Below, piece by piece: positions 1-515 of a DNA stretch of 36,197 bases (position 1 is its first letter; the number at the start of each line of letters is the position of its first letter). The DNA is from Nostoc sp. 106C. Its GTDB lineage: Bacteria > Cyanobacteriota > Cyanobacteriia > Cyanobacteriales > Nostocaceae. The translations under genes and the position numbers were made by a program. The notes under the pieces were generated by a model. That model was not told the origin of the DNA. It searched no databases and saw nothing but the letters and a program-made list of their open reading frames with translations. Where the stretch lies: NCBI RefSeq assembly GCF_002154725.1, contig NZ_MTAW01000173.1, forward strand, positions 1 through 36,197, read 5' to 3'.

Positions 1-86
1 TCCGTGCTTGGATGGCTCCTCAAGATCAGCCCCACGAACAATTTGTATTCCCTGAAGAAGTTCTACCTCGTGGTAACGCGCTGTAA
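1..86 (+). CDS. psbD: Photosystem II D2 protein, C-terminal end (partial)
   Basis: Only the last 28 codons plus stop are inside the window; the 5' part lies upstream. The reading frame starting at base 3 ends with WMAPQDQPHE and FPEEVLPRGNAL, which I recognise as the conserved carboxy terminus of the D2 reaction-centre protein. D2 pairs with D1 in the thylakoid membrane and binds the photosystem II pigments and quinone QA. No psbC follows immediately; psbD normally overlaps psbC, so this is probably a separate stand-alone psbD copy, as found in other cyanobacteria with two psbD genes. An intrinsic terminator follows about 55 bases after the stop. Confidence 0.92.
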   Translation, partial: RAWMAPQDQPHEQFVFPEEVLPRGNAL

Positions 87-205: not shown

Positions 206-290
206 ATATTTGATGAAGGTTTTAAACCCAGAGTGAAACGCTCTGCCTTATTGAAACTAAGACCACTTAGGCAACAAGGAGGTGATGCCC

Positions 291-362
291 ATGATAGAAA
301 GTAGTAAATGCATGGGTCATCAGGTTGCAGTTAGCCGGCTGTGTGCTGGGGCTGTTCTCTAA
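291..362 (+). CDS. 23-residue small ORF, candidate leader peptide
   Basis: ATG at 291 to TAA at 360-362. It is preceded by AAGGAGGTGAT (277-287), close to a full match to the anti-Shine-Dalgarno end of 16S rRNA, placed 8 bases from GGAGG to the ATG. That site is far stronger than those of most genes here, which is the main argument for translation. The peptide starts MIESSKCMGH and ends RLCAGAVL; it has two Cys and an apolar tail, with no clear signal peptide or membrane helix. I do not recognise it. Codons 10-13 make up one arm of the long-range helix 320-329/445-454, and the start codon lies in a local hairpin, so translation and RNA folding should influence each other. Confidence 0.5.
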   Translation: MIESSKCMGHQVAVSRLCAGAVL

Positions 363-467
363 AGGTTAGTCTTAGTTCTCTTGTAGATACTAAGTTTAAC
401 TCAAGTAGCTAGGCTAAGCTAGGAGTTCCTTCCAGCAGTCTGGTTGCAACCTGAAGACCCGACTAGA

Positions 468-515
468 CCGCTCTGACTTAGATCCACCGATCTAAATCAG
501 AGCGGATAGTTTTTT
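468..515 (+). terminator. Strong intrinsic terminator of the leader/small ORF
   Basis: A 16-base arm at 468-483 pairs with 490-505 with a single C-A mismatch around a 6-base loop (CCACCG), then ATAG and six T residues (510-515). It lies about 140 bases before the dehydratase start codon. It either ends a separate small transcript or acts as an attenuator for the gene at 655. Confidence 0.85.

Follow-up and report, generated by a model that had tools for sequence, protein, structure and literature searches.

What occupies the gap between psbD and the pterin-4a-carbinolamine dehydratase gene of Nostoc sp. 106C, and does it serve one of these neighbours or stand as a gene of its own? The window, which is the whole stretch of 36,197 nucleotides analysed here, carries in order a psbD tail, the small RNA described below, the dehydratase gene (PF01329) and an SLH/OprB porin gene; the flanking genes in Nostoc sp. 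PCC 7120 are presumably alr4548 and alr4549. The psbD 3′ end lies at the window start, where 27 residues match the end of TIGR01152 with 46.8 bits (NCBIfam), a score below the whole-protein cut-off because the window holds a psbD fragment. The contig edge cuts inside psbD (window 1–86), and many contigs of relatives likewise start a few hundred bases upstream of the RNA; assemblies perhaps tend to break at duplicated copies of psbD. A terminator-like hairpin after psbD (141–164) is the sole listing of a simple terminator scan, and a promoter scan gave no plus-strand promoter-like site upstream of the RNA.

The RNA, 294 nt long, has a computed folding energy of −111.5 kcal/mol with z = −6.2, and none of 200 shuffles is as stable, which bears out the proposal, made in an earlier note on this DNA, of a structured RNA between psbD and the dehydratase gene. 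Its parts are collected in the table. The 5′ region of the relatives reaches z < −2 in 27 of 105 loci versus 8 of 105 for the upstream stretch (mononucleotide shuffles; 105 of the 106 filtered loci). Upstream of the Shine-Dalgarno, an ACCGYTTAGG-like block (window 262–272) recurs, by eye, in many relatives and resembles the ACCGCTC arm of the terminator; it might lie close to a promoter or base-pair with the 3′ end.

Table. Features of the small-RNA gene in the window and, in the last four rows, of related loci with a 17-codon ORF.
Feature	Position	Strand	Evidence or remark
Whole small-RNA gene	216..515	+	Conserved blastn block and covariance-model hits; 5′ end guessed, 3′ end set at the T run
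5′ hairpin	229..245	+	Forms in the fold of the window sequence; sequence varies among relatives
Extended Shine-Dalgarno AAGGAGGTGAT	276..286	+	Near-invariant columns in alignment A1
ORF MIESSKCMGHQVAVSRLCAGAVL*, 23 codons	291..362	+	ATG at 291, stop TAA at 360–362
Open motif GAAAGTAGTAAA, codons 3–6	297..308	+	Alignment A1; AGTAGT nearly invariant
P1, 5′ strand, third base of codon 8 through codon 13	314..329	+	Pair counting, helices 1 and 2
P1, 3′ strand	445..460	+	12 of 15 P1 pairs with double changes
P1b, 5′ strand, codons 15–17	334..340	+	RNAalifold unprompted, then counted
P1b, 3′ strand	437..444	+	RNAalifold, pair counting
P2, 5′ strand, codons 19–21	345..351	+	98.8% of cells paired; 4 of 7 pairs with double changes
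P2, 3′ strand	430..436	+	Pair counting
P2b, 5′ strand, final sense codon, rod apex	357..359	+	Pair counting
P2b, 3′ strand	423..425	+	Pair counting
Variable apical region, no conserved sequence	363..422	+	Alignment A1
UUCCUYCC, partly unpaired side of the rod inner loop	426..433	+	Alignment A1; conserved
Terminator-like hairpin, conserved base CUAGACCGCUC...GAGCGGAUAG and T run	463..515	+	Pattern match in relatives
17-codon ORF in L238	1523..1576	+	
17-codon ORF in L250		-	
17-codon ORF in L251		-	
17-codon ORF in L252		+	

The RNA is single-copy in its own genome by blastn, three further matches (L002–L004) being short, at chance level, and dropped. With positions 225–525 as the query, blastn was run on three nested samples that have genomes in common: at family level 136 of 145 genomes gave a match, at order level 177 of 195 and at class level 212 of 291. 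A covariance model built from 104 sequences then gave matches in 8 of 43 genomes in which blastn had found none, seven end to end with E-values of 3.4e-13 or better and one as a weak partial match (E = 7e-4); three of the seven full-length matches belong to family f46. The 43 genomes are all the listed blastn-negatives, and 59 further blastn-negatives of the class lie outside that set. In a phylum sample of 292 genomes the model, with strict filters, matched 99, and it found nothing convincing beyond the class. Hits in three genomes outside the class (G636, G677 and G740) and in two of the small-genome family f34 (G401 and G444), with E-values of 4e-5 to 8e-3, were treated as chance; the G636 hit (L263), the only one of the five inspected, holds little besides a Shine-Dalgarno and an ATG. 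No strong match was obtained in f34, which is probably Prochlorococcus/Synechococcus, in the reduced genomes G013 and G062 of the family to which Nostoc sp. 106C belongs, or in the four tested genomes of genus g159 of family f49, by blastn or, in the genomes to which it was applied, by the covariance model, so that small-genome lineages appear to have lost the RNA. A pattern scan of named genomes gave at least 118 stretches; among the matches listed, 80 of 80 titles are cyanobacterial, with Microcystis, Trichodesmium, Okeania, Acaryochloris, Fischerella, Chamaesiphon and Thermosynechococcus among the genera. Carriage by phages, plasmids or viruses was rejected, as blastn gave no match in phage and plasmid records and the exact pattern gave none in viral contigs. 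Helices and peptide alike are kept in the relatives, and the loss of conservation that the earlier note had named as evidence against itself was not seen.

For the comparative analysis, 227 loci were scored, after exclusion of L184 as too short. Redundancy and motif-score filters reduced them to 106 loci (L072 was lost on motif score), and removal by hand of L060 and L156, which have long apical insertions, gave alignment A1 with 104 rows, 68 derived from blastn and 36 from the pattern scan. Because the locating pattern of these 36 rows fixes letters in codons 4–6, 9 and 17–20, we ran both the rod test and the codon tests again with the 68 blastn rows only, and the outcome was the same. The 17-codon loci and other divergent loci found by the model are outside A1. 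Rows without ORF insertions or gaps were used for the stop test (220 of 227), the frame test (97 of 104) and the blastn-only codon test (65 of 68).

The central element of the fold is a long rod in which positions 314–359, which cover the ORF from the last base of codon 8 through codon 23, pair with positions 423–460. It was drawn unprompted by RNAalifold on the MAFFT sequence alignment. Over its 32 pairs and 104 sequences, 94.8% of cells are paired versus 88.9% in shuffles, and double changes are seen at 24 of 32 pairs (shuffle mean 11.6) and in 205 cells (shuffle mean 61.9), as raw counts not corrected for phylogeny; none of 500 shuffles reaches any of these measures. In a slide control that retains relatedness, slide 0 was best and a shift by one column lowered pairing to 54–57%. 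The P1 pair of columns 66 and 248, for instance, is AU in 40 rows, GC in 21, GU in 16, CG in 15 and UA in 3. On the 68 blastn rows, the rod has 94.6% of cells paired and double changes at 23 pairs and in 136 cells, again reached by none of 500 shuffles. The long-range helix of 320–329 with 445–454 that had been proposed is real, but its extent was understated, as it forms the middle of this longer rod. Likewise, the expectation that ribosome and fold must compete is upheld by the coincidence of one rod strand with the codons of the ORF. As judged from the alignment, codons and a covarying long-range duplex on the same bases appear to be the new feature found here.

Alternative pairings of the same bases fared less well. 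The hairpin proposed over the start codon (284–293 with 311–321) can be drawn, with 89.3% of cells paired, but is not supported as a covarying element, since only 2 of its 10 pairs show double changes, no excess over shuffles; it would compete with the rod for 314–321. RNAalifold draws a short start-codon hairpin (columns 19–25 with 49–55) beside the rod, in near-invariant letters. A local hairpin within the ORF (335–339 with 345–349) was rejected: 96.9% of its cells are paired, but double changes are few, with 4 cells at 3 pairs, its score is also attained by 4 of 500 shuffles, and RNAalifold places its bases in the rod. The UUCCUYCC segment is complementary to Shine-Dalgarno sequences, and GGAGG:CCUYC complementarity is present in 97.5% of cells, without covariation (slide −1); sequestration of the Shine-Dalgarno by CCUYC in cis was rejected, as it shows no covariation and exceeds a probability of 0.5 in only 2 of the 103 loci tested (of 106). 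A local hairpin of the freed 3′ strand was also discarded, for it does not covary and is improbable with the ORF masked, its outer and inner stems exceeding 0.5 in 1 and 4 of 104 sequences, respectively; taken alone, the 3′ strand shows no more structure than shuffles do, being more stable in 42 of 104. In the masked-folding model, P1 and P1b are lost by construction when the ribosome stands in mid-ORF, as is P2 when it stands at the stop; in the latter state P1 and P1b form with median pair probabilities of 0.91 and 0.60. The median unpaired probability of UUCCUYCC rises in this model from 0.46 to 0.56 with the ribosome at the stop and exceeds 0.8 in 2 of 104 sequences, a change so weak that strong exposure of the segment by a ribosome at the stop was rejected.

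The small ORF behind a strong Shine-Dalgarno that had been pointed out earlier is present as described, with a further in-frame ATG at 285. Among the 227 loci, the start is ATG in 225 and GTG in 2, the stop is TAA in 134, TAG in 88 and TGA in 5, and the ORF has 23 codons in 214, 24 in 11, 25 in one and 27 in one. The locating pattern required a start in frame with AGTAGT, but any failing loci would have been listed: there was none among the 110 loci of the first set, and the five later failures are two GTG starts and 3-nt insertions. Insertions in the ORF occur in 7 of 227 loci and every one is of 3 nt; of 220 loci, 214 have a stop as codon 24, with all three stop codons in use. In four loci of family f37 (L056–L058 and L110), the spacer between Shine-Dalgarno and ATG has diverged, and an SD-like purine run and the ATG are kept. 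Internal stops are absent from frame 0 in all 97 rows and present in 74 and 97 rows in the other frames, column-wise shuffling predicting a frame-0 stop in 8.7% of rows.

The coding signal is graded along the ORF. In codons 16–23, 55.5% of one-base codon differences are synonymous versus 18% and 14% in the other frames, while codons 1–8 (14.5, 16.4 and 12.4% across frames) and codons 9–15 (25.6, 31.6 and 31.2%) carry no coding signal. By parsimony on a FastTree topology, 80 of 135 steps in codons 16–23 fall at third positions, a share of 0.59 as compared with 0.30 in codons 2–8 and 0.35 in codons 9–15; codon 18 gives 36 of the 80, and without it the count is 44 of 79. The blastn rows agree, with 58.2% of differences in codons 16–23 synonymous versus 15.9 and 12.6%, third-position steps of 58 of 101 (35 of 64 without codon 18) and shares of 0.30 and 0.32 for codons 2–8 and 9–15. 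These patterns suggest that the peptide end, RLxAGAVL, is under amino-acid-type constraint and that the first half drifts, and part of the third-position excess could come from constraint on the 3′ strand, not on the peptide. Constraint at the RNA level is what the nearly invariant AGTAGT of codons 4–5, where AGC is rare, looks like: the motif columns read AGTAGTA in 66 and GGTAGTA in 2 of the 68 blastn rows, AGTAGTA being fixed by construction in the 36 pattern-derived rows; L108 (AGTTGT) is in neither listing. In six divergent loci, which make up four groups (L238; L250–L252, read by eye; L260; L261), the ORF stops after 17 codons, without CAGAVL. The stop at codon 18 then falls inside the rod, and these loci are natural variants that bear on whether the C-terminus matters.

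The RNA ends in a terminator-like hairpin, whose stem (468–484 with 489–505) has 16 pairs with one mismatch and is followed by a T run at 510–515; the 16-pair terminator announced earlier is evident both in the letters and in the computed fold. The 468–505 hairpin is absent from the listing of the terminator scan, presumably because ATAG sits between the stem and the T run. Of 110 loci, 104 match the pattern of a GCGGATA-type 3′ arm no more than 400 nt from the stop; among the six others, three (L066, L087 and L103) have near variants and three (L086, L095 and L101) none. The terminator base, CUAGACCGCUC/GAGCGGAUAG, is also missing in the divergent loci L253–L259, L267 and L268, in which the ORF and the rod partner persist. 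The sequence conservation of this base (window 463–473 and 500–509) goes far beyond the need of a terminator, possibly reflecting a protein or RNA contact.

The arrangement recalls TnaC, SecM and the trp leader, leader-peptide or arrest-peptide regulators with which it shares a short ORF, a strong Shine-Dalgarno, a constrained C-terminus near the stop and an RNA structure tied to ribosome position; the difference is that no conserved downstream gene is found here and that no terminator arm takes part in an alternative helix. By tblastn on 110 loci, some of them shortened by contig ends, 43 have both the psbD tail and the dehydratase, 20 have psbD alone, 17 the dehydratase alone and 30 neither. 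Presence of the dehydratase in 60 of the 110 (17 + 43) speaks for an attenuator of the downstream gene, and in L105 and L113 this gene begins just 17 nt past the terminator (L105:2495–2682) and may there rely on read-through out of the RNA gene. Among loci L034–L113, it is downstream on the same strand wherever listed. Yet 50 of 110 loci lack it within the stretch examined, some stretches being short, and in 16 of 68 loci of L034–L113 the nearest scorable downstream ORF, called mechanically at 70 aa or more, runs in the opposite direction; two of these 16 (L063 and L075) also have the dehydratase on the same strand by tblastn. Moreover, the rod ends at 460 and the terminator base starts at 463, so that the two have no arm in common, as the earlier note had itself observed. 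A leader-peptide attenuator, here of the pterin dehydratase, thus seems very improbable, the synteny being too variable, and the cis-attenuator role that had been considered is not a general one. Given the changing neighbours and the terminator-like hairpin, the RNA is most readily viewed as a gene in its own right, one that often sits between psbD and the dehydratase gene.

Is this gene already known? At gathering score, Rfam 15 gave 0 matches in the window and 20 related loci, and a permissive scan of positions 1–900 gave two chance-level matches at 75–173, outside the RNA. As there was also no ARAGORN or Rfam match to tmRNA, identity with tmRNA, tRNA or any Rfam family was rejected; the confident Rfam hit that would have spoken against the earlier note did not appear. 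Among RNAs of regulatory size with a short ORF, RNAIII/hld, SgrS and SR1 are the nearest in kind. In RNAIII, which carries a C-rich segment complementary to Shine-Dalgarno sequences, the coding and pairing regions are separate. The same separation is described for SgrS in the available portion of PMC5126843. In the present RNA, by contrast, the reading frame makes up one of the two duplex strands. Yfr1 is also a phylum-wide cyanobacterial sRNA with a conserved pyrimidine-rich motif but has 54–57 nt, with no ORF or rod described (PMC4734099).

The earlier statement that no named family fits holds for Rfam, but not for the literature, since the sRNA ncl0160 and its predicted peptide are described in PMC4734099. 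This 2016 study, which set the genome of Nostoc sp. PCC 7120 against those of 88 other cyanobacteria and excluded the marine Prochlorococcus/Synechococcus lineage, reports 83 homologs of Synechocystis ncl0160 with a conserved predicted peptide of 23–25 aa. The start there is ATG in most homologs and GTG in some, with a putative ribosome binding site ahead of it, and the stop is TAA in 47, TAG in 34 and TGA in 2. Our RNA resembles it as a Cyanobacteria-wide sRNA with such a peptide behind a ribosome binding site, and shows the same features: wide cyanobacterial spread, an ORF of 23–25 aa, a ribosome binding site, and ATG or rare GTG. Since the stop proportions also match (TAA/TAG/TGA 59/39/2% here versus 57/41/2%), the RNA is very probably a homolog of ncl0160, the two being compared by description, not by sequence. 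The available text of PMC4734099 mentions a predicted structure for ncl0160 (Figure S2), and contains no covarying rod, coding gradient or function. Within the available parts of the papers from a search on small RNAs by psbD, dual-function sRNAs and small ORFs, no further paper on this RNA was recognised, and the rod is unreported as far as the literature was searched, Figure S2 of PMC4734099 holding a predicted structure.

What might such an RNA do? Comparison of relatives points to a conserved RNA and rod, to a preserved start, stop and frame, and to independence from any one neighbour; transcription, translation, switching and an action of the freed segment are what we infer. The very strong Shine-Dalgarno would recruit a ribosome to the 23-codon ORF, of which codons 1–7 would lie in an open region and the end of codon 8 to codon 23 in the rod, paired with the 3′ segment just before the terminator. 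Because the 5′ strand of the rod is made of codons 8/9–23, with the stop codon at the apex, a ribosome reading the ORF must melt the rod, and would do so stepwise, freeing the 3′ segment with UUCCUYCC. Ribosome transit, or a pause at the ORF end, would then set whether the 3′ segment is masked or free, and the freed segment would act on a partner or alter the stability of the RNA. The RNA is most likely such a translation-gated switch; as a complete account, a translated riboregulator with its own gene, whose rod is opened by ribosome transit, is put forward tentatively, at a little under an even chance. The gating is motivated by the anatomy, and its candidate outputs would be trans pairing, RNA decay, protein binding and peptide activity. 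Arrest peptides act while still in the ribosome and have a constrained C-terminus adjoining the stop. As this trait is shared, a pause at the ORF end is plausible here; a phylum-wide translation sensor, in which the nascent peptide pauses the ribosome at the rod apex and ribosome position sets the exposure of the 3′ strand, is nevertheless unlikely in its full form.

Three other readings give one half of the molecule the leading part. If the RNA were the mRNA of a functional micropeptide, with a rod that only stabilises the message or slows the ribosome, the strong Shine-Dalgarno, the preserved start and stop and the amino-acid-type constraint on codons 16–23 would be accounted for. Such a reading fits less easily with codons 2–8 and 9–15, which lack a coding-type pattern (third-position shares of 0.30 and 0.35), with the loci in which a 17-codon ORF lacks the C-terminus, and with a rod laid just over codons 8/9–23, which exceeds the needs of stability; we consider it somewhat unlikely. 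A trans-acting sRNA with UUCCUYCC as a seed aimed at Shine-Dalgarno regions, for which translation of the ORF would be secondary, draws on the conservation of this segment, its partly unpaired position in the rod, the 97.5% GGAGG complementarity and the lack of structure in the isolated 3′ strand (more stable than shuffles in 42 of 104). The seed alone leaves the start, the stop and RLxAGAVL unexplained, and without a ribosome on the ORF 430–433 take part in P2, so that this proposal appears quite improbable. The least probable reading is a purely structural RNA with an incidental ORF: variation in codons 2–15 does ignore codon position, and that in codons 9–13 follows the pairing, but start class, stop class, frame and the third-position excess of codons 16–23 are all preserved, and SD-like sequence and ATG stayed in place where the f37 spacer diverged.

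The RNA is thus present in most of the cyanobacterial genomes sampled, yet without an Rfam 15 family. Its rod is a concrete and mutable design, in which recoding can separate the contributions of the peptide, the pairing and ribosome transit. If family f46 corresponds to the Gloeobacterales, the RNA would date to the deepest cyanobacterial branches. Should the reading as a translation-gated switch prove true, oxygenic phototrophs would possess a built-in readout of translation; should it prove false, the RNA would still be a phylum-wide micropeptide gene.
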